In this document: in pieces, positions 23,570 to 33,921 of the stretch
Numbering within the stretch: position 1 is the stretch's first letter
How the letters are laid out: each line of letters opens with the position of its first letter
Virus record (IMG/VR): IMGVR_UViG_3300048131_000271
Location: 1 to 38,514 of that record
DNA from: a virus
Strand: one strand, 5' to 3'
DNA length: 38,514 nucleotides
Translations under genes and position numbers: made by a program
The notes under the pieces: model-generated
Databases searched by the model: none
Seen by the model: the letters and a program-made list of their open reading frames with translations, nothing else
What the model was told of the DNA's origin: nothing

Positions 23570-26122
23570 TTACGCGTCCGCAGTTTCTACGGTTTCGAAA
23601 TCATCCTTGACCGATATGCCTAGCAAGCCGCGTCCGCGAATACCGTACGTGTCTTTTATCTTCTTTACGTACGTTCTCGCTTCCAGTTTTTTGTTCAGTG
23701 TTCTAGCGTTACTGATATACCTCAGCTCACCGCGTACCTCGGCAAACTGTTTCCAACTGGCCCACAGCGCCGCGTTAGTAGCTACCTTGTCGTTACCGAT
23801 CTCACAGCACTCTTCTATCCACTCAGCGAGTAGGTCCATGTCGCTTTTGTACTCGTTACGCGCTTCCTCAACGATGGCCGGTGGCCGCAGCCCCATCTCT
23901 AAGTACGACATCGCACCGCGTACCAGCCACGCCAGGATGCCTTCATGTTCAGCTTCCAGCTTTGCGCTGCGGTCGTTGTCTTTGACGATATCGGGATCGG
24001 TACTGAAGTTACGGGTAAAGGGTACGAGCATGATGCGGCGCCATATCCCGAAGTCATCACCTTTAATGATAGGCTTGTGGTTGGTGGGGAGTATGACCGT
24101 CCAAGTGGGCGTAAACTGTACGAAAGTGCGAGAGTATGCCGCGCGCGCTGCCATGGCCTCACCGCCAGTCATCGATTTGATCAGACCTTCTTTGAGTTCG
24201 CGGTCTTCGTCCGGCTCAGTGACATAGACAAAGCGGCTACCGCGCAGGCGTAGGATATCGTCACGCGGACCACCGGCGTTCGCGCCGCCACTACCTAAGA
24301 AGGTCTCATTGGATGCTGTGATCGCGTGTGCACCCATCGCGTCACGAATAGCGCCAAGGACAGTCGACTTACCGTTACTGCCTGTGCCGTACGGGATAAC
24401 GATGATGTCTTCTTTAGGATCAGCGAGTAGCGTGTACCCCATTAAGCGTTGGAAAAATTCGACCAGTTCAGTGTCACCATAAAAGCACTCACTGACGGTT
24501 TGCTCAAATAGTGGGCATTTAGCTTTCGGCTTATACGTAGTGCTACTAGCAATGGTGATACGGTCTAGCCTATCGGCGGGTATTAGCTCACCTGTGGTTA
24601 AATCGATAGCGCCGTTAGCGACGCCAAACAGCATTTTGTTCGCGTCTAGCTCGTCAGTGTTTACTAAGATGCTTTTTTCAGTACGGATGATTTTGACCAT
24701 AGCCGTCATCATGGCGACTTTTAGACTGTTCTTAACGAAGTCGTATTGATCACTGGCTAAGATACCCTGCTCAGCGCCATCAGCGATAAGCTGCATTAGT
24801 GTCGCTTTGGATAACTGCTCAAGCTCGGCTTGCGCCGACACGCGCCAGTAGCTACCCGTCCAGCGGTACCAGGTTTCGGTATCTGCAGCAAACATGATGT
24901 TATCGCCGTACAGCTCAAGCATACGGCGTGCGTTACCGAACTCGGTATATTGCATCTGACGCTCTAAGTTCTCAGCGCTGGTATCTTTGCCAAGACCTAA
25001 CAGCGTATTGATAGAGCTGTCAGATATCGACTGCTTCATCACCGCTTTATACTTAGCTTTGGCCGTGGCGCGTACCTCGTTGCACGTGATCACCTCAGTC
25101 TTATCAAGCTCAGTGCCAATCGCTTTTAGTACCTCTTCAAGCTCAAAGCCGTCCGCGCAGTTCTCGATGCGGTCTTTGTACTCTTGGATAGCGCCGCGTT
25201 TTTGCTCACGCTTTTGCTGCGCGTTGGCGTCACCGCCCCACTTCATTAGTGTACGGATAGTGATACCGCTACCGTCGTGACCGAAGCCCGACCAGCGCTT
25301 TTCTAAATCTTCATCGCTACTATAGTTGTCCGCTTTTTGCGACCAACCATCCCACATATTAAAAGCCGCATCGCTGCCGTCGTATTCATGGTGCAAAGCC
25401 ATACCGACCTGCAGCCACCGGTCATAGTCTGCAGCATCTAGGTTAGCGAGTAGCTTTTCAGCGTCTTTGATATCGACGCCCACTTTGGCACCTGCAGTAA
25501 AGTCTTCAGGATCCGCTTTGCCACTATTTATAGTTCTAGCAGTCGAACCGCTGCAAGCAGTCATACCGGCGTCTAAAGCCATTTGCTCGAATACTTCTAA
25601 TACTTGTGTGATTTCATCTGCAGTAACGACGGGTAACTCTTTAGCAGGCGTGTACTCTAAGCCGCCAAGCATATCGGTCCACTCGTACGGCTCGCCCGTG
25701 TCGGGATGGATATGGTATGCGACAAACTGCTGACCACGGCCTAGCACCTCGACACGCTGACGCTCTTCGCTGTCATCGGTGAACCACTGGCTTGCCGCTT
25801 TTGACCAGCCGCTATCGGCTGCGCGGTAGACCAGCATCGTCTTTGGTGCTTGCCCTACCCGCTCGACCGTCATGCCTAAATGTTCATGGCACCAGTCCGA
25901 CAGCGCAGCGGTGAGCTCCGGGTTAAGTACGTCGATATCGATAGCGCAAATCGGATACTCACCGATGCCGCATTTCACCCCGATACCGGCGTCAATGTCT
26001 TCAGCGCTAAACTCTTTCTTTTGCCACTCTTTTATCAGTGGGCCTTTTTGCCCTTTATTAATTGGGACAATGCTATAACCCCCGTCACGTAGTCTTTTCG
26101 CTTGCATAGTATAGTTATCCAT
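23570..26122 (-). CDS. primase-helicase (AEP prim-pol, PriCT-2 and SF3 helicase)
   Basis: An 850-residue replication initiator. The N-terminus (1-190) is an archaeo-eukaryotic primase-like prim-pol domain: YSIVPINKGQKGPLIKEWQ and the metal motif CAIDIDVLN with Asp62 and Asp64. Residues about 225-290 are PriCT-2-like (WLQVGMALHHEYDG, then GHDGSGITIRTLMKWGG). After a D5-type region (NTDELDANKMLFGVANGAIDL) comes the SF3 helicase near 575-720: Walker A GTGSNGKST, then FVYVTEPDED, and sensor LPTNHKP followed by IWRRIMLVPF. It would open the origin, unwind and prime. The start has only a distant AAGGAC. The neighbouring iterons are the likely target. Confidence 0.92.
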   Translation of the reverse strand: MDNYTMQAKRLRDGGYSIVPINKGQKGPLIKEWQKKEFSAEDIDAGIGVKCGIGEYPICAIDIDVLNPELTAALSDWCHEHLGMTVERVGQAPKTMLVYRAADSGWSKAASQWFTDDSEERQRVEVLGRGQQFVAYHIHPDTGEPYEWTDMLGGLEYTPAKELPVVTADEITQVLEVFEQMALDAGMTACSGSTARTINSGKADPEDFTAGAKVGVDIKDAEKLLANLDAADYDRWLQVGMALHHEYDGSDAAFNMWDGWSQKADNYSSDEDLEKRWSGFGHDGSGITIRTLMKWGGDANAQQKREQKRGAIQEYKDRIENCADGFELEEVLKAIGTELDKTEVITCNEVRATAKAKYKAVMKQSISDSSINTLLGLGKDTSAENLERQMQYTEFGNARRMLELYGDNIMFAADTETWYRWTGSYWRVSAQAELEQLSKATLMQLIADGAEQGILASDQYDFVKNSLKVAMMTAMVKIIRTEKSILVNTDELDANKMLFGVANGAIDLTTGELIPADRLDRITIASSTTYKPKAKCPLFEQTVSECFYGDTELVEFFQRLMGYTLLADPKEDIIVIPYGTGSNGKSTVLGAIRDAMGAHAITASNETFLGSGGANAGGPRDDILRLRGSRFVYVTEPDEDRELKEGLIKSMTGGEAMAARAAYSRTFVQFTPTWTVILPTNHKPIIKGDDFGIWRRIMLVPFTRNFSTDPDIVKDNDRSAKLEAEHEGILAWLVRGAMSYLEMGLRPPAIVEEARNEYKSDMDLLAEWIEECCEIGNDKVATNAALWASWKQFAEVRGELRYISNARTLNKKLEARTYVKKIKDTYGIRGRGLLGISVKDDFETVETADA

Positions 26123-26164
26123 GGTTTAATTAAGTCCTTGCATAGTGTTTAGTTAAGAAAGTCG

Positions 26165-26200
26165 AAAACCCCATTCAGCTCATATCTGACTGGGGTTTTT
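26165..26200. terminator. bidirectional-looking intrinsic terminator before the primase gene
   Basis: AAAACCCCA at 26165-26173 pairs with TGGGGTTTT at 26191-26199, with T tracts on either strand. On the minus strand it overlaps the stop of the 55-residue ORF and separates the regulatory genes from the primase gene. Confidence 0.7.
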
Positions 26201-26342
26201 CTTCGTCTAGCAGTTGACCGTGCTCATTAAAAATATCTCTAAGGGTTTTTGGTCTTCTGCCGTCCCACCCTTTGCGCTGCTCTTGTATCTTTTTAGCGTG
26301 TGCGATTTCACGTTTCATCGCTTCATCGTCCAGTCTATCCAT
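26175..26342 (-). CDS. 55-residue charged small ORF
   Basis: A protein of 55 residues starting MDRLDDEAMKREIAHAKKIQ, strongly charged and helical, with a central GWDGRRPKTLRDIF. No family is recognised. ATG 26342 overlaps the end of the RHH gene and has GAGGA eight bases upstream; the frame is open further upstream to 26369, but that start lacks an RBS. It is part of the three-gene leftward regulatory operon behind the Cro-like gene. Confidence 0.55.
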   Translation of the reverse strand: MDRLDDEAMKREIAHAKKIQEQRKGWDGRRPKTLRDIFNEHGQLLDEEKPQSDMS

Positions 26343-26571
26343 CGTCAAAATCCTCAAATCCGTTCTCACAGTTCTCAGCGTTCTCTAGCATTGCCAAAGT
26401 CGCCACCGTAGATTTAGCTTGAAGGTATTGATTTTTTAGCTCTTTATTAGCTAGATCACGAAGCCACTTACTAGGCGTTACGCCATCTTTAAAAGAAACA
26501 TTTTTAATAGCTTCAGATAAATCGGTCGAAAGGTGCACGGTCACAGCTTCCGTTAGTTTTTGTTTAGCCAT
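26335..26571 (-). CDS. ribbon-helix-helix (Arc-like) protein
   Basis: A 78-residue protein. Residues about 8-47 match a ribbon-helix-helix fold: strand TEAVTVHLSTD, helix LSEAIKNVSF, turn KDGVTP and helix SKWLRDLANKEL. The tail is acidic. Such proteins bind DNA as dimers and often repress phage early genes. It is the second gene of the leftward operon, directly after the Cro-like gene. Confidence 0.65.
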   Translation of the reverse strand: MAKQKLTEAVTVHLSTDLSEAIKNVSFKDGVTPSKWLRDLANKELKNQYLQAKSTVATLAMLENAENCENGFEDFDDG

Positions 26572-26573
26572 GC

Positions 26574-26828
26574 CTAAGCTCCTTCGGATATATCGGCTTC
26601 GTTAGTTTCGCGTCGTTGGCGTTCATAGTCCCAGTTGACATCGGGCCGCAGCTCTTCAGCAGTTACTTGATCATCCGTTAATCTTTGGATGTCGAGACAA
26701 CGATCTTTAGGTGGGTTTTTGACATCCCACTTATAAACTGCCCAAGGGGTTATTTGTAAGGCGTAAGCAAGCTGGGCAGGATTGCCCAAAATGTCGAAAG
26801 CTCGCTCTAGCGCTGTTTTAGTGTTCAT
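26574..26828 (-). CDS. Cro/YdaS-like HTH repressor
   Basis: An 84-residue protein. Residues 1-50 carry a helix-turn-helix: ALERAFDILGNPAQLAYALQITPWAVYKWDVKNPPKDRCLDIQ, where AQLAYAL and TPWAVYKW are the HTH helices, as in YdaS/Cro-type regulators (a one-turn insertion before IP is common). It is divergent from cI, with three operators between. It is expected to bind them after induction and repress cI. The start has GGAG eight bases upstream. Confidence 0.8.
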   Translation of the reverse strand: MNTKTALERAFDILGNPAQLAYALQITPWAVYKWDVKNPPKDRCLDIQRLTDDQVTAEELRPDVNWDYERQRRETNEADISEGA

Positions 26829-26842
26829 TACTTTCTCCTGTG

Positions 26843-26933
26843 TACTACTTTAAGTAGTAATACTACTACTTTTAATAGCAGTGACGCAAGAGCTTATATG
26901 GACTAAACTATATTTTTACTACTAAGGGTAGGA
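26843..26933. promoter_or_regulatory. OR-like operator cluster (three 17-bp sites) with divergent promoters
   Basis: Sites of the type TACTACTTTNAGTAGTA are found at 26843-26859 (perfect palindrome), 26864-26880 and 26917-26933. The first two overlap a minus-strand promoter for the Cro-like gene: -35 TTGCGT (26884-26889 on the plus strand reads ACGCAA), an 18-bp spacer and -10 TAGTAT (26860-26865). The third lies just before cI, behind a plus-strand -10-like TATATT (26909-26914) with a poor -35, as expected for a weak, activated RM-type promoter. Confidence 0.8.
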
Positions 26934-26937
26934 TAAT

Positions 26938-27696
26938 ATGAGCGATTTAGAGGTAAAATATCCCGAGTTTGCAAAGAGATTAACTGAGTTGATGGACGCA
27001 AAAGGGCTAGACAGGACCGCTTTAAGCGATGCAACAAATATTAGTTATGAGATGATCAGGCGGTACAACGAGGGTATGGCGAAACCAAGACGCAAAGGAC
27101 TGGAAAGTATAAGTAAGGCTTTAGACACCACAGCCCAATATCTTGAGTATGGCGGCGAGTTCGCAAAGAAAATGACTACTGCCGAAATAATGGAGAAGAT
27201 AAAAGCTATTGAAAATGGCGATACCAATAGCATCGAAGATATAGACGCGCCCGAGGGCACTAGGAAAGTATCGGTTGATCACGGCATGGCAGGCCAAATG
27301 CCTGTAATTAGTTGGGTAGCGGCAGGCAGTTTCTCAGACGTAATGCCTGTGACTATCGATGACGCTATTGAGTGGATTGATAGACCGAGCAACCTATCAC
27401 CTAGGGCTTTTGGTTTAATCATCCAAGGGCGCAGCATGTGGCCGGACTTTAAACCAAATGAGATTATATATGTAGAGCCGGACGTATCTCCTTTAGAATT
27501 AAGAGACGGCGCTTTGGTGGTTATACATTGTAACGATGACAAACAAGCCACCTTTAAGCAGTTGATAATTGGCGACAGTCCGGATGATATGTATCTAAAG
27601 CCATTGAACAAAGATTGGCCTGATCAAAAAATCGTACCTATGGGGGAGTGTACCCTAGTGGGTATCGTTGATAGTAAGCTAACTAGATATAGGTAA
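26938..27696 (+). CDS. cI: CI-type prophage repressor, LexA/S24 family
   Basis: A 252-residue repressor. Residues 10-66 form an N-terminal HTH (FAKRLTELMDAKGLDRTALSDATNISYEMIRRYNEG, then KPRRKGLESISKALD). The C-terminal peptidase-like domain has the self-cleavage site VAAGSF (Ala129-Gly130), catalytic Ser166 in GRSMWPD and Lys207 in ATFKQL, so it should be cleaved upon RecA activation in an SOS response. It lies between two operator clusters about 1 kb apart, and no RBS stands out before the ATG (GGTAGG is near). Confidence 0.93.
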   Translation: MSDLEVKYPEFAKRLTELMDAKGLDRTALSDATNISYEMIRRYNEGMAKPRRKGLESISKALDTTAQYLEYGGEFAKKMTTAEIMEKIKAIENGDTNSIEDIDAPEGTRKVSVDHGMAGQMPVISWVAAGSFSDVMPVTIDDAIEWIDRPSNLSPRAFGLIIQGRSMWPDFKPNEIIYVEPDVSPLELRDGALVVIHCNDDKQATFKQLIIGDSPDDMYLKPLNKDWPDQKIVPMGECTLVGIVDSKLTRYR

Positions 27697-27699
27697 AAT

Positions 27700-27810
27700 A
27701 TGAAAACAAGCGAATACTATTGGATAGAGCACTTTTTGAAACACGCTAAACCAGTTAGAGAGTTACCTTTCGGCTGGTGTGTCTACCGAGAAGCGATCGA
27801 TTGGGATTGA
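27700..27810 (+). CDS. 36-residue ORF downstream of cI
   Basis: ATG 27700 begins 3 bases after the cI stop and opens 36 codons, product starting MKTSEYYWIEHFLKHAKPVR with several aromatic residues and ending IDWD. AGGT lies within 9 bases upstream. It is co-transcribed with cI up to the terminator at 27834. Lysogenically expressed genes, for example exclusion genes of the rex type, lie at this place in lambda. No family is recognised and it may be untranslated. Confidence 0.4.
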   Translation: MKTSEYYWIEHFLKHAKPVRELPFGWCVYREAIDWD

Positions 27811-27833
27811 CTTAGACCGATAATAAAAAAATA

Positions 27834-27857
27834 ACCGCCCTAGTGGCGGTTTTTTTT
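27834..27857 (+). terminator. intrinsic terminator of the cI transcript
   Basis: ACCGCC-CTAGT-GGCGGT forms a perfect 6-bp stem followed by seven T on the plus strand. It separates the cI message from the OL-like region and PL operon. Confidence 0.9.
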
Positions 27858-27887
27858 GTGCCTAAAAATCAATAACTTACGATAAAA

Positions 27888-27950
27888 TACTACTTTTAGT
27901 AGAATTATTTACTATTTTTAGTTGCATTATACTACTTTAGGTAGTAATAT
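27888..27950 (+). promoter_or_regulatory. OL-like operator cluster (three 17-bp sites) and PL-like promoter
   Basis: Three sites resembling those in front of cI lie at 27888-27904 (TACTACTTTTAGTAGAA), 27910-27926 and 27930-27946 (TACTACTTTAGGTAGTA). A good sigma70 promoter overlaps the last two: -35 TTGCAT at 27922-27927, a 17-bp spacer and -10 TAATAT at 27945-27950. It would start the rightward early operon, and repressor occupancy would block it. Confidence 0.85.
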
Positions 27951-28103
27951 TCCCTTATCGCAACGAGATACATCGAGCTGACGAAGCAGCGATAGGCCAA
28001 CAAGCCAAACTATTTAAAAACATAATTATTCAAATTTAGTTATTTACACACGTGCGATTGGTCCGCCAGTCGTACGCAGTAAGCAACTAACAAGGAGTAC
28101 CCC
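27951..28103 (+). other. leader of the rightward early operon
   Basis: A noncoding 5' leader of about 150 nt. TATCGC (27956-27961) and GCGATA could pair around an inner loop near 27956-27995, giving a weak hairpin. No antiterminator gene is recognised here, and no nut-like box is assigned. Confidence 0.4.
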
Positions 28104-28301
28104 GTGCCGCATACCGTGAACCTAGTTATTTTTCTAGTTATGCTCGCCGCAATAGCCCTTGCGCTACCCAAAGCTTGTGCCACGCAAGCCGCCAATGAGC
28201 GAGCCGCGACCGAGCTACATAAAGAAAGTATCAGTGGCGTTTATATAAGCCCTTCCGATCAAGTCGCTATCGATTTAATGAGATACCCAAGGGAGAAATA
28301 A
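28104..28301 (+). CDS. small membrane or secreted protein, first gene of the PL-like operon
   Basis: A 65-residue protein beginning at GTG 28104 with AAGGAG 9 bases upstream. Residues 5-21 (VNLVIFLVMLAAIALAL) are a transmembrane segment or signal peptide; a cleavage site near ACA-TQA is plausible. The remainder is polar and helical. No family is recognised. By position it might act against host or superinfecting phage, but nothing supports this directly. Confidence 0.6.
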   Translation: MPHTVNLVIFLVMLAAIALALPKACATQAANERAATELHKESISGVYISPSDQVAIDLMRYPREK

Positions 28302-28303
28302 AC

Positions 28304-28711
28304 ATGCCTTACACACTATGTCAGTTAGAAGCGCTGGAGTCACGCGAACTGCTGACGCTAGCCGAGCACGACTTAGACGAATTTACCACTTCGGACACTG
28401 AACGCGCTCTGATTTACCACCTTAACGATTTACTGCACGTCAATGATGACTTTCTCGACCCTGATGATGCTGACGCAGTGTTAAGTGAAGTCAGCGCCCA
28501 GCTACCTGAAGACGACTTCTTAGGCCACGCCATCGACATCGCCCAAAGCATCGCTGACGGCAAAATGCTTAAGAAAGGTCTACAAGCCGAAGGCCAACGC
28601 TTAGCAAACTTGCTCGAAGCCATCCAGGACGAGCAGCGTAACGCTACTGACTACGCGAACCATGAAATTTTGAAGTTAACCCAACCCACAGCCGCAAACG
28701 TAACCCAATAA
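28304..28711 (+). CDS. unknown acidic early protein
   Basis: A 135-residue, very acidic, helical protein. Residues 1-60 are Leu/Asp-rich (LTLAEHDLDEFTTSDTERAL), and the C-terminal half includes KKGLQAEGQRLANLLEAIQDE, a likely helical hairpin. No domain is recognised. It has GGGAG before the ATG and lies between other early genes that precede the nuclease/SSB pair. Confidence 0.65.
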   Translation: MPYTLCQLEALESRELLTLAEHDLDEFTTSDTERALIYHLNDLLHVNDDFLDPDDADAVLSEVSAQLPEDDFLGHAIDIAQSIADGKMLKKGLQAEGQRLANLLEAIQDEQRNATDYANHEILKLTQPTAANVTQ

Positions 28712-28722
28712 GGATAAACATT

Positions 28723-29181
28723 ATGAGTATTGAAAGTGGAATTACCAAAATAGCTGAAGCGCTTGGCGCATTGGCACAATCAGGCAACGCTATAGCAGAA
28801 AGCATCAACCGCTACTGCGATATGGCCCAAGCCGAAGCGGTCAGCACTGGCGACGATGTTGAGCTGAAAGAAGTGATCAACAAAGCGGTTGCAGAGTTTG
28901 AAGCGGAACACGATGAGCATAAGGCAAAAGCGGAGCAAAGCGACTCGCAAGCCGCCGAAGACACTGCCGCTGGAGAAGCCGAAGCTGTCGAAGAAACGGC
29001 AGATGCTGAAAGCGATGGGCCGGTAACTTTTGAAGAAGCCAAGACCATCGTTATCGATACGGTCAAAGCCAAAGGCAAAGATAAAGTATCGGCAATCTTT
29101 GAGCAGATGGGCGCCAAGAAACTGCCCGACCTTGAACCTGAACAGTACGGCGAGCTTGTCGCACTGTGTAAAGCGGCATAA
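28723..29181 (+). CDS. unknown acidic early protein with C-terminal conserved module
   Basis: A 152-residue protein. Residues 1-60 are helical, 60-95 a low-complexity Ala/Glu/Asp linker, and 97-151 (TFEEAKTIVIDTVKAKGKDKVSAIFEQMGAKKLPDLEPEQYGEL) form a compact helical unit found in several phage proteins next to SSB or recombination genes. There the pattern LLxxxGAxxLxxLxxxxYxxL is typical. Function is unknown; it likely accompanies the downstream nuclease/SSB pair. AAGGA precedes the ATG. Confidence 0.65.
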   Translation: MSIESGITKIAEALGALAQSGNAIAESINRYCDMAQAEAVSTGDDVELKEVINKAVAEFEAEHDEHKAKAEQSDSQAAEDTAAGEAEAVEETADAESDGPVTFEEAKTIVIDTVKAKGKDKVSAIFEQMGAKKLPDLEPEQYGELVALCKAA

Positions 29182-29191
29182 GGAGCGAACC

Positions 29192-30463
29192 ATGTCACAC
29201 GCCAAACTAAGCCCATCATCGAGTGGACGGTGGCTCACCTGCCCCGCTTCACCCTTGATGGAAGACGGCAAACCGGATAGCAGTAGTAGCTTTGCCGCAG
29301 AAGGTACAGCCGCCCATTTCTTAGGTGAATGTTGTCTATCATCCGGGCGCGACGCTATCAGCTATTTAGGTGAGTTAATCGAAGTTTACGCGAATGGCGA
29401 TACGCACTTCTTTATAGAGAACGCCAAAGAGCCGCCAAGTGACGCACCCCTTGAGTACCAATTTGACGTTGACCAAGAAATGTGCGACTACGTGCAAACC
29501 TACGTTGACCTAGTACGCGACATCGTGCGCGCAACGGGCGGCGAACTGCTTATTGAGCAACGTCTACCACTCACGCCTATCACTGGTGAGGAAGGCGCAG
29601 GCGGTACGGCAGACGCAGTAATTCTTACTGACGATGAGATCATCATTGTCGATTTGAAGTACGGCCAAGGCTTAAAGGTGGACGCTGAAGAGAACACGCA
29701 GCTCATGATCTATGGCCTCGCCGCTTTAGAAGAGTACAGCCTGATTGGTGACTTCAAGCGCGTTCGATTAATCATCAGCCAACCGCGACTGCATCATGTC
29801 AGCGAGTGGACCGCTGATATCGACACGCTTAATGCTTTTGCCAAGCGTGTGACCAATACGGCAAAGCTGATCAATAGCTTAGACGTTACAAGCGACTTAA
29901 CAGAGCTATTCGCACCTAGCGTGAACGCTTGCCGCTACTGCAAAGCTAACACGGAATGCAAAGCGCTCGCTGAGCACAACATCAAATTAGTCAGTGACGA
30001 CTTTAGCAGTTTAGACGATGCTTGCGCCTACACCGTAAGCGACGCGAAGTACGACAGCGACACGCTCGCTAAGATTTATGGGCACATCGACTTACTCAAA
30101 GACTGGATCAAAGCCGTCGAGACTGGCGTTTACGCCAAGCTGATCAACGGTGAAGCGGTCGGAGATTTGAAACTGGTAGAAGGTCGCGGCGGTGCTCGTA
30201 AATGGGCAAACACTACCGAAGCTGAAACCATGCTTAAATCGATGCGCTTAAAGGTCGATGAAATGTACGACAAGAAAATCATTAGCCCCACCACCGCCGA
30301 AAAGCTCGCCAAAGCAGGAACACTAGGCGATATGCAGTGGGAGAAATTACAAGCCTTAATAGTAAGACCTGAAGGCAAACCGAGTATTGCCCCAGGTAGC
30401 AGCCCAAAACCTGCAATTAACTTAAACCCTGTCGAAGACTTCGACGATATAACCAACGTATAG
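29192..30463 (+). CDS. DUF2800 PD-(D/E)XK nuclease (Cas4/RecB-like)
   Basis: A 423-residue nuclease. The start MSHAKLSPSSSGRWLTCPAS is the family N-terminus. Catalytic core: Glu122 (LLIEQRL), Asp141 (GTAD), the D-x-K of IVDLKYG (Asp154 and Lys156) and Gln170 in NTQLMIYGLAAL. Four cysteines (Cys17, Cys247, Cys250 and Cys256 in ACRYCKANTEC) suggest an Fe-S cluster, as in Cas4 and AddB. It is paired with a DUF2815 protein as in many phages and presumably processes DNA ends during recombination or replication. ATG 29192 with AAGGAG is chosen; the longer frame upstream (29030) overlaps the preceding gene and has no RBS. Confidence 0.85.
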   Translation: MSHAKLSPSSSGRWLTCPASPLMEDGKPDSSSSFAAEGTAAHFLGECCLSSGRDAISYLGELIEVYANGDTHFFIENAKEPPSDAPLEYQFDVDQEMCDYVQTYVDLVRDIVRATGGELLIEQRLPLTPITGEEGAGGTADAVILTDDEIIIVDLKYGQGLKVDAEENTQLMIYGLAALEEYSLIGDFKRVRLIISQPRLHHVSEWTADIDTLNAFAKRVTNTAKLINSLDVTSDLTELFAPSVNACRYCKANTECKALAEHNIKLVSDDFSSLDDACAYTVSDAKYDSDTLAKIYGHIDLLKDWIKAVETGVYAKLINGEAVGDLKLVEGRGGARKWANTTEAETMLKSMRLKVDEMYDKKIISPTTAEKLAKAGTLGDMQWEKLQALIVRPEGKPSIAPGSSPKPAINLNPVEDFDDITNV

Positions 30464-30473
30464 GACCATAATC

Positions 30474-31013
30474 ATGTCAAAAGTAATCTTACAAAACGTT
30501 CGCCTTGCCTTCCCTAACATCTTCCGTCCGTCTGAGCAGTTCGATAACTTCGGCGCGCAGTTGATCATCGAAAAAGGCAGCGAGAACGAAAAGAAAATCA
30601 ACGCCGCTATCCTTGAGGCCGCAAAGACCAAGTGGGCGGCCAAAGCTGAAAGTACCATCAAACAGCTAAAAGCCGGTAACAAGATATGCTTTACCGACGG
30701 TGATGCAAAAGCCGAGTACGAAGGCTTTGAAGGCAACATGGCACTATCTGCTACCAACCGCCAGCGTCCTACAGTAGTCGGTAAAGACCGCAGCCCGCTG
30801 ACTGAAGCTGACGGCATTGTTTACGCCGGTTGCTATGTTAATGCTGTTGTCGATGTTTGGCCGCAGGACAACCAGTGGGGCAAACGTATTAACGCCAGTC
30901 TTAAAGGCGTCCAGTTCGCAGCAGACGGTGACTCGTTCACTGGCGGCGGCGTAGCGTCTACCGATGACTTTGAAGATTTAAGCGACGGTACTGAAGCCGA
31001 AGACTTCGTATAA
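30474..31013 (+). CDS. DUF2815 ssDNA-binding-like protein
   Basis: A 179-residue protein with the DUF2815 opening KVILQNVRLAFPNIFRPSEQF, an OB-like beta-rich middle (AGNKICFTDGDAKAEYEGFEGN, then VYAGCYVNAVVDVWPQDN, WGKRINASLKGVQF) and an acidic, Gly/Asp-rich tail like those of single-strand-binding proteins. It would coat ssDNA during phage replication or recombination. AGGA precedes its ATG, 10 bp after the nuclease gene. Confidence 0.85.
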   Translation: MSKVILQNVRLAFPNIFRPSEQFDNFGAQLIIEKGSENEKKINAAILEAAKTKWAAKAESTIKQLKAGNKICFTDGDAKAEYEGFEGNMALSATNRQRPTVVGKDRSPLTEADGIVYAGCYVNAVVDVWPQDNQWGKRINASLKGVQFAADGDSFTGGGVASTDDFEDLSDGTEAEDFV

Positions 31014-31255
31014 ACCAGTTCAGCAGCAGCACAGGCGTAAGCCTAGAACGCTTTAGAGATATGAGGACTGCTAACTATCTCTCGGCATACCGTAATAGTA
31101 AGAGGCAGACAAGCCGAAAGCGAATCCCGTATGCGGGTAAATTCTAAATCCGATTAACTGCCGTAAGCAGTTTTATTTAGTGAGCCAATTGGGTGTTAAC
31201 CATCACACAGTCGACCAGTTGGCTCAACTAAATAAACCCGAAAAGGAGTAATACC
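31014..31255 (+). ncRNA. structured noncoding segment, candidate cis-RNA
   Basis: A 242-nt gap between DUF2815 and the next gene, packed with hairpins on the sense strand: AGGC-GTAA-GCCT (31033-31044, GNRA loop), AGAGATA/TATCTCT (31055-31082), GAATCCCG-TATG-CGGG...ATTC (31122-31144), AACTGC-CGTAA-GCAGTT (31156-31172) followed by TTTT, and a 21-bp hairpin with one bulge and one wobble (31172-31192 with 31215-31236). The last ends about 20 nt before the start codon of the next gene, right before its AAAAGGAG. No ORF of note lies here. Gaps elsewhere in this operon are mostly under 15 bp, so the segment is likely functional RNA. Confidence 0.55.
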
Positions 31256-31873
31256 GTGACGCATTTCAGCTTATCCCGAACGGCTAGAAAAGCGAATAAA
31301 AAAGCCGCTTACGATATGGCGGTCAAACTTAAAAAAGGCGAAACGTTAAACGTTGACGAGCTTGATAGCTTGCTTTTGTACTTCGCGCCGAGCCTACCGA
31401 AAAAAGCAACAAGCGCAATGCAATGGGTCGCCAAAGCCGCTGCGGTAAACGAGGAACGTAAGTACCTGAATTATGTACGTGTCCAAAACGGTACGGCATA
31501 CGCTTCAGACGGCGGGCGAATGCATATCGCTAAAAGCGACTTGCCGGAAGGCTGGTACTGTCCGCTAACCCTTGCGAGCGTAACGCCTGACCTTAGAGCG
31601 CCAGACTATCTACGGGTAACAAAGCGTAGGGCAGACGCTGCAACAACACGCGCTACGCTTGGCGAATTGACCAAAGGCATAGAGGGTAAAAGCCCATATC
31701 TATTGCATCCTGTTTTAGATACCGCCGTGAATGAAAACCATCTACTCGACGCGCTCAACACCCAAGCCGATGACGCCGCTTTTGAGTATGAAGAATACAA
31801 CTCAAGTTATCGAATCCACGGATCACATGAGTTCGGCGATTTCATCGTAATGCCTATGCGAGTAAAACCATGA
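31256..31873 (+). CDS. sliding-clamp-like protein (DNA polymerase beta-clamp fold), divergent
   Basis: A 205-residue protein. Residues about 72-105 (LNYVRVQNGTAYASDGGRMHIAKSDLPEGWYCP) resemble the clamp segment that normally reads ...LVATDGHRLAI..., and the C-terminus FGDFIVMPMRVKP mimics the conserved VVMPMRL end of bacterial beta clamps. The gene overlaps the PolA gene by 4 bp (ATGA), so it is probably the processivity factor. It is half the length of bacterial clamps, so it may form a ring from more subunits or be only one domain. GTG start with AAAAGGAG upstream. Confidence 0.55.
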   Translation: MTHFSLSRTARKANKKAAYDMAVKLKKGETLNVDELDSLLLYFAPSLPKKATSAMQWVAKAAAVNEERKYLNYVRVQNGTAYASDGGRMHIAKSDLPEGWYCPLTLASVTPDLRAPDYLRVTKRRADAATTRATLGELTKGIEGKSPYLLHPVLDTAVNENHLLDALNTQADDAAFEYEEYNSSYRIHGSHEFGDFIVMPMRVKP

Positions 31874-33921
31874 ATACACTATTTTTAGATTTAGAAACAT
31901 ACAGCGAAACGCCAATCAAGCACGGCACGTATGAGTACGCCGCCAACGCCGAGATTATGCTTTTCGCTTACGCTTGGAACGATGAACCCGCAAAAGTTAT
32001 TGATATGACAAGCGGCAAAGATTACAACATCACCATTAAGGACTTGTTAAGTAGAGCTGACACCATCATCGCACATAACTCAATGTTTGACCGTAACGTG
32101 CTAAACGCCAACGGCTTTGTCACTGACCTAAGCAAATGGCGCGACACGATGATCAAAGCGTATAGCCACAGCTTAGTCGGTAGTCTTGGCAACTTATGTA
32201 CTATTTTAGGCGTCGAAGCTGACCAAGCTAAAGACAAGGACGGTAAAAAGCTCATTCAATTATTTTGTAAGCCTTTAGGTAAGCATAGAAACCTGGACCG
32301 CGCCAACCGCGAAACACATCCTGAAGAATGGGCGAAGTTTGTCGAATACGCGCGGCTTGATGTTGAAGCCATGCGCGCAGTAGATAAAGCACTGCCAGAT
32401 TGGAACATGGCTTGCGAGATACCGCACTGGCACCTTGACCAGATTATCAATGATAGAGGCTTTAAGGTAGACACTGAACTGGTAGACGCCGCACTTATCG
32501 CTATTGATATCGAAAAAGAACGCTTAGCGAATGAAGCACAGCTAATGACAGACGGTGCCGTTGAATCAGCGACACAACGCGCGGCGCTACTCGAATTTAT
32601 CTTGAGCGAATACGGTATCGATTTACCCGATATGCAAAAGTCGACGCTTGAGCGCCGCATCAATGATCCTGACTTACCAAGCGCGGTAAAAGACTTACTC
32701 AATAATAGACTACAAGCGAGTACAACCAGTACTAGTAAATACCAAGCGCTTGCACGTTCTACCAATAGCGATGGGCGACTTCGCGGCACATTGCAATTCG
32801 CCGGAGCCGCACGCACAGGGCGCTGGGCAGGTCGTACATTCCAACCGCAAAACCTACCACGTCCAAGTATGAGCGACGCGGCTATCAATGCCGGTATTGA
32901 AGCGCTCAAAGCAGACTGTGCAGAGTTTATCACCGATAACATCATGGAGCTGACAAGCTCAGCGCTACGCGGCTGCATCATCGCGCCTAAAGGCAAAAAG
33001 CTAGTCGTCAGCGATTTATCGAATATTGAGGGGCGCGCCCAAGCATGGCTGGCCGGTGAAACATGGAAGCTAAAAGCCTTCGCCGATTTTGACAAAGGGC
33101 AAGGTTACGATCTTTATAAGTTAGCGTATGCCAAATCCTTTGGCGTATCTCCTAAAGCAGTCACTAAAGACCAACGCCAAATCGGTAAGGTGCAGGAATT
33201 GGCACTTGGTTACGGCGGCGGCGTAGGTGCTTTTACTACGTTCGCAACCGCTTACGGTATAGACCTTGACCAACTCGCAGACGATGCTTGGGACACACTA
33301 CCCGCGCAAGAAGTCGAAGCGTCACGCTCATGGCTTAATGTCCGTAAAAAGGACAAAGAGTACGAGCACACCATGAGCGATAAAGCCTTTATCACTTGTG
33401 ACACGCTTAAACGTATGTGGCGCAAAGCCCACAGCAACGTGGCCCAACTATGGTACGACCTAGAGAACGCTTGCCGCAATGCGATTAACGCAGAAGGTCA
33501 AACGTTCCGAGCGGGTAAATTAGCCGTACGTCGTGACGGCACATGGTTACGCATACGACTGCCAAGCGGTCGCTATCTATGTTACCCAAATATCCGCATC
33601 AAAGACGACACCATTCAGTACCAAGGTATGAACCAATACACTCGCAAATGGCAATATCTCAGCACTTACAGCGGTAAGCTCTTTGAGAATATCTGCCAAG
33701 CCATGAGCCGCGATATCTTAGCGCACAACATGCACACCATCGACAAAGCCGGTTATAAGATTGTTTTAACCGTGCACGATGAGGTGATATGTGAAGCGCC
33801 TGATACTGACGACTTTAATCACGAACACCTAAGCGAACTACTGGCGGCTAACCCACCGTGGGCAAAAGACATACCACTTGCCGCAGGTGGTTTTGAAGAC
33901 TACCGATATAAAAAGGATTGA
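31870..33921 (+). CDS. family A DNA polymerase with 3'-5' exonuclease domain
   Basis: A 683-residue replicative polymerase of the phage PolA type. Exonuclease: FLDLET (Asp7, Glu9), IIAHNSMFDRNVLN near 74 and YARLDVEAMRAV near 160. Polymerase: GRWAGRTFQPQNLPRPS near 317-333, motif A VVSDLSNIEGRAQAWLAGE (Asp382), motif B RQIGKVQELALGYGGGVGAF (near 437), and motif C LTVHDEVICEAP (His636-Asp637-Glu638). There is no 5'-3' exonuclease domain. It is translationally coupled to the clamp-like gene upstream. Confidence 0.95.
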   Translation: MNTLFLDLETYSETPIKHGTYEYAANAEIMLFAYAWNDEPAKVIDMTSGKDYNITIKDLLSRADTIIAHNSMFDRNVLNANGFVTDLSKWRDTMIKAYSHSLVGSLGNLCTILGVEADQAKDKDGKKLIQLFCKPLGKHRNLDRANRETHPEEWAKFVEYARLDVEAMRAVDKALPDWNMACEIPHWHLDQIINDRGFKVDTELVDAALIAIDIEKERLANEAQLMTDGAVESATQRAALLEFILSEYGIDLPDMQKSTLERRINDPDLPSAVKDLLNNRLQASTTSTSKYQALARSTNSDGRLRGTLQFAGAARTGRWAGRTFQPQNLPRPSMSDAAINAGIEALKADCAEFITDNIMELTSSALRGCIIAPKGKKLVVSDLSNIEGRAQAWLAGETWKLKAFADFDKGQGYDLYKLAYAKSFGVSPKAVTKDQRQIGKVQELALGYGGGVGAFTTFATAYGIDLDQLADDAWDTLPAQEVEASRSWLNVRKKDKEYEHTMSDKAFITCDTLKRMWRKAHSNVAQLWYDLENACRNAINAEGQTFRAGKLAVRRDGTWLRIRLPSGRYLCYPNIRIKDDTIQYQGMNQYTRKWQYLSTYSGKLFENICQAMSRDILAHNMHTIDKAGYKIVLTVHDEVICEAPDTDDFNHEHLSELLAANPPWAKDIPLAAGGFEDYRYKKD

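Follow-up and report, generated by a model that had tools for sequence, protein, structure and literature searches.

A structured RNA cassette and a recurrent phage hairpin module in a viral replication operon

The window analysed here, the 38,514 nucleotides of IMG/VR virus record IMGVR_UViG_3300048131_000271, contains a replication operon in which the gene for a single-stranded DNA-binding protein (SSB, stop codon 31011-31013) is separated from the next ORF (start 31256) by a 242-nt intergenic gap, noncoding save for one 28-codon ORF. The gap is made up of three parts, a structured RNA cassette that we term RNA A, its 3' module, and a long bulged hairpin, hairpin B (Table 1). An earlier note on this DNA, made from the sequence alone, had described a 242-nt structured gap, and this description is upheld by the ORF check, by folding and by comparative evidence. 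The segment 31000-31270 folds with a minimum free energy of -74.8 kcal/mol (z -3.2, as good in 1 of 200 shuffles), an excess that stems mostly from the long hairpin 31173-31235; 31030-31147 folded alone is unremarkable (z -1.1), so that energy by itself is insufficient to prove the 5' part, which the comparative evidence does prove. No promoter-like site was found in 30800-31500, and any RNA must therefore derive from the operon transcript. The ORF that follows, previously labelled a clamp gene, ends in FIVMPMR, which we take to resemble the C-terminus of the sliding clamp (DnaN), but it gave no Pfam match, no convincing PDB match and a weak PHROG match (RusA-like, E 0.0012), and as bait its product recovered a single relative. 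On the strength of that C-terminal motif a clamp identity is plausible, and we refer to the gene as clamp-like.

Table 1. Coordinates of the RNA features, the flanking genes and the overlapping small ORF
Feature	Position	Strand	Remark
Enc34-type ssDNA-binding protein (SSB) gene, 179 aa, upstream	30474..31013	+	Pfam PF10991, E 9.6e-37
Structured RNA cassette RNA A, ~159 nt	31013..31171	+	94% identical copy in an unrelated Psychrobacter phage operon
Variable 5' hairpin AGGC-GUAA-GCCU	31033..31044	+	loop GCAA in L106; other sequence in other copies
Proposed closing helix S0, 31050-31054/31117-31121	31050..31121	+	pairing discussed in text
Hairpin S1, 31055-31061 with 31076-31082	31055..31082	+	extensive compensatory changes
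28-codon ORF overlapping RNA A, basic peptide	31061..31147	+	judged incidental
Kissing/pseudoknot helix S2, GCAUAC 31085-31090 with GUAUGC 31129-31134	31085..31134	+	paired in 7 of 7 copies
Small hairpin S4, GGC-AGACAA-GCC	31104..31115	+	pairing from alignment
Hairpin S3	31122..31144	+	upper stem 31126-31128/31135-31137 covaries; loop is a strand of S2
3' module, CCGAUU and hairpin S5 AACUGC-CGUAA-GCAGUU	31150..31172	+	widespread phage motif
Long bulged hairpin B, AGUCGA 3' bulge	31173..31235	+	homologues given in text
Downstream ORF, 205 aa, clamp-like	31256..31873	+	without Pfam match
Family A DNA polymerase (PolA) gene	31870..33921	+	Pfam PF00476, E 2.1e-13

RNA A is conserved well beyond this operon, with four further Psychrobacter copies of 88-94% identity across the aligned core and two divergent copies. 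The 94% copy sits ~20 nt 3' of an HNH-type endonuclease gene, and the three additional copies lie in other Psychrobacter genomes. A covariance model built on these five copies, the window's included, recovered two more, one in another Moraxellaceae genome (E 1.7e-10; this element is L232 in IMG/VR) and one in viral contig L154 (E 3.2e-10), which brings the total to seven; a pattern scan for the RNA A body matched one other viral contig only. Several weak matches of the model at module loci (E about 1e-3) owe their score to the module alone, and we excluded them from the homologues. Homology among the copies has sharp limits, at the two ends of RNA A, and the gene neighbours differ from copy to copy. 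The nearest viral relatives, L002-L004 (SSB protein 93-94% identical; DNA 86-88% for L002 and L004), keep the sequence from ~31146 onward at up to 97.8% identity, with a short stretch in place of 31014-31145. Because these relatives lack the body yet retain the module and long hairpin, the RNA body and the 3' part are separable modules, the body being a mobile structured cassette. That L002-L004 keep the operon without the 5' RNA domain weakens an essential cis role.

Two neighbouring arrangements may be recorded here. In L006/L015/L134 (Psychrobacter pygoscelis) the RNA A position is occupied by a tRNA-like gene whose anticodon arm is defective (L134:5921-5992; ARAGORN, tRNA-???), with CCGACU and hairpin B following. 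A CTGTCCTAGGACAC / CCGTCCTAGGACAC repeat in L003 flanks a further ~100-nt insert between hairpin B and PolA.

That RNA A moves between operons, and that HNH or endonuclease VII-like genes stand immediately 5' of the RNA or the module in L106, L107, L141 and L151, would suit a selfish homing element, with the RNA serving free-standing HNH endonucleases as their conserved target, or itself forming part of the element. We regard this as improbable, as most copies and modules, the window's included, have no adjacent HNH gene, and the status of homing target would leave the RNA structure unexplained. Nor does the Rfam group I intron model match anywhere in the window up to E 10, which leaves the intron remnant entertained in the earlier note unsupported.

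Comparison of the copies indicates that RNA A is a real folded RNA. In a MAFFT alignment of the seven sequences 92.6% of cells are paired in S1, S2, upper S3, S4 and S5; no shuffle among 500 was as good, and slid controls reached at most ~44%. Compensatory changes, the check that the earlier note had proposed, are present, with 13 of the 25 pairs changed on both sides, although such counts are not independent events because five of the copies are closely related, and much of the weight of the covariation rests with the two divergent copies. The outer pair of the kissing helix S2 is GC, AU, CG or GU depending on the copy, and is never broken. Of the hairpins noticed at first reading, the GTAA-tetraloop hairpin near the 5' end and the long hairpin just before the RBS are confirmed; the kissing helix, which went undescribed, is also part of the real fold. 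Two elements were rejected as conserved helices, S0, mostly formed in all but one of the five close copies and unsupported in L109, L139 and L154, and the lower stem of S3 (31122-31125/31141-31144), likewise unsupported in the divergent copies L139 and L154. Two further pairings considered by eye, one between the S1 loop CUGC and GCAG and the other between CCGA and a UCGG segment, are lost across copies. The unremarkable energy of the 5' part might suggest spacer hairpins that arose by chance, but this is scarcely credible, contradicted as it is by the covariation, the remote homologues and the recurrence across unrelated phages.

It is also very improbable that the conserved feature is the basic peptide of the 28-codon ORF (MRTANYLSAYRNSKRQTSRKRIPYAGKF in the window) and not the RNA. 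The ORF is open and of equal length in all five close copies, but nonsynonymous changes prevail (8 against 1, window versus L109), several of them compensatory pair changes, L139 and L154 retain the fold without the ORF, and the spacing from an SD-like GAG to the ATG is very short. A protein-coding small ORF was accordingly rejected, its codons giving no sign of purifying selection.

The first reading recognised no known class in the segment, and of the 4227 families in Rfam 15 none scored above the gathering threshold in the whole window; sub-threshold matches up to E 10 are only to microRNA and other implausible families. ARAGORN found no tRNA or tmRNA in the window. The open-access literature searched yielded no description of RNA A or of the module. 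Structured phage RNAs without assigned role are in themselves familiar, and it is the shared 3' module that is less usual.

The hairpin of this module, S5 (31156-31172), has the loop CGUAA (nCGUAAn across relatives) and not a tetraloop. A search pattern of CCGAnU and the hairpin, which placed no constraint on the third stem pair, matched 115 IMG/VR stretches, or 73 viral contigs after removal of redundancy. In 96% of these 73 the free pair takes one of the four Watson-Crick combinations, against ~25% expected of chance matches, and the loop is best written nCGUAAn because the position adjoining it pairs in just 68%. Modules lie within an ORF of at least 120 aa in 9 of 46 cases, compared with 68% of random positions. 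The motif is restricted to phages, as it is unenriched in 349 proteobacterial genomes (2 matches, where the reversed control gave 3 and a scrambled pattern gave 0), one of the two matches, in Psychrobacter pygoscelis, looking genuine.

Many different gene families stand 3' of the module, which bears directly on the proposal, made in the earlier note, of a switch or attenuator governing how the clamp-like gene and polymerase are transcribed or translated. The end of hairpin B ~9 nt from the SD of the next gene would suit such control, and S5 is terminator-like by score in the window, where together with TTATTTA it could be a weak terminator. However, the U tract is missing in L106-L109 and in most module matches, so S5 was rejected as an intrinsic terminator. 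Unrelated genes follow the other copies of RNA A, and even among close relatives the gene after the module and long hairpin may be PolA (L002 and L003), clamp-like (L004) or another. This independence from neighbouring genes argues against a gene-specific switch, which we consider quite unlikely, and a trans-acting RNA, also among the options of the earlier note, would be the better fit. RNA A is thus probably a phage non-coding RNA gene in its own right.

What stands beside the module is consistent with this. tRNA genes lie within ~210 nt in L163, L183, L199, L247, L255 and L256, and in L147 by Rfam only. On the 5' side, tRNA-Ala ends 1 nt from the module in L199, tRNA-Gly is 24 nt away in L247 and tRNA-Arg ~120 nt away in L183; with almost nothing between tRNA and module in the first two, the module does not in every case terminate a larger RNA. 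On the 3' side, a tRNA follows the module hairpin by ~8 nt in L255 (Bordetella phage vB_BbrM_PHB04), a low-scoring Rfam tRNA match follows by 4 nt in L147, and tRNAs lie 111 nt away in L163 and ~205 nt away in L256. Several phages carry the module within tRNA arrays, although the RNA A segment, unlike the stable RNAs of these arrays, is not a tRNA. In L155 the Proteo-phage-1 sRNA (RF03044, gathering score 42 bits) lies 38 nt 5' of the module. This RNA, like RNA A a phage-associated sRNA candidate, was matched in L155 only and in the window neither at gathering nor to E 10, and its Rfam model stops short of the module and excludes it. In L222 a type II hammerhead ribozyme (Rfam RF02276, 6516-6583) starts 6 nt 3' of the module. 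Hairpins of at least 16 bp start within 8 nt 3' of the module in 10 of 69 distinct cases (shuffle mean 0.4, maximum 2), an enrichment that is partly post hoc because this stricter measure was chosen after viewing sequences; a looser measure of hairpins upstream and downstream of modules gave no enrichment. Many modules have only an RBS downstream, without long hairpin, tRNA or ribozyme.

Several module-bearing contigs hold other features of note. The L255 record has at 45.0-46.6 kb a 1.5-kb unannotated stretch with three tRNAs, the module and a permuted tmRNA (RF04321). On the reverse strand of L160, 5900-7400 (~1.5 kb) offers little in the way of convincing genes and holds three CGUAA hairpins resembling the module, together with repeats of CUUCACGCAUG-like motifs; it looks like a cluster of RNAs of no assigned kind. 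L166:3343-3436 carries an abiF RNA (RF03085) overlapping an anti-hemB-like match below gathering score, possibly a phage-borne Abi defence locus.

In the window the structure that follows the module is hairpin B, which adjoins S5 without a spacer. Homologues occur in L002-L004, L006/L015, L113 and L116, and a similar stem in L233/L258; they mostly keep the stem GAGxxAAUUGG...CCAGUUxGCUC, and several keep the AGUCGA bulge. Phage operons, e.g. that of T7, have RNase III processing hairpins in which a long, bulged stem lies between cistrons. Hairpin B shares this form and intercistronic position and is a putative cut site, but is distinguished from the T7 type by its conserved AGUCGA bulge and its placement directly after the module.

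The adjacent hairpins S5 and B also recall the put sites of phage HK022, early-operon RNAs of two adjacent stem-loops which bind RNA polymerase, need no phage protein and sustain transcription across untranslated stretches (PMC9378689). By analogy, the segment could be a cis-acting antitermination or anti-Rho RNA. This is the main rival explanation, albeit an unlikely one: modules occur in phage tRNA arrays and other untranslated regions, where Rho would act, and L002-L004, with the hairpins kept and the body absent, would be better explained. However, put sites sit 3' of early promoters (PMC9378689) whereas the segment sits inside an operon, and the CGUAA hairpin is absent from HK022 26000-33500, a stretch chosen without annotated put coordinates. 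A second hairpin accompanies only a minority of modules, and a put-like role leaves unexplained the kissing RNA body, for which putRNA has no described counterpart.

We therefore return to the non-coding RNA gene. The neighbours of the module, which include tRNAs, long double-stranded stems, one self-cleaving ribozyme and one phage sRNA already known, fit a boundary between non-coding RNA and polycistronic transcript, and so favour a stable, released RNA. RNA A would be transcribed along with the early replication operon; its body, 31045-31149, folds with the kissing helix included, and its 3' end is the CCGAnU and nCGUAAn hairpin module common to many phage RNAs. A stable RNA would probably be freed by cleavage at a processing structure 3' of the module, here hairpin B, a putative RNase III-type cut site, in other phages a tRNA (RNase P) or, once, the type II hammerhead ribozyme, and the released RNA may act in trans or as a ribonucleoprotein. 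We put the probability of this reading, an untranslated structured phage RNA gene released at a downstream processing structure, at about 0.5. More tentatively, the CCGAnU and nCGUAAn hairpin might serve non-coding RNAs of phages generally as a tag for their 3' end or their handling, read by one host or phage factor and uniting Proteo-phage-1, RNA A, tRNA-linked RNAs and others in a single large system that has so far gone unrecognised.

RNA A adds a new family of structured RNAs whose fold can be tested, and its 3' module, short and specific to phages, turns up again beside tRNA genes and unrelated RNAs of phages. Should a single factor recognise the module, many orphan intergenic phage RNAs would be tied together, and there would be an easy route to their function.
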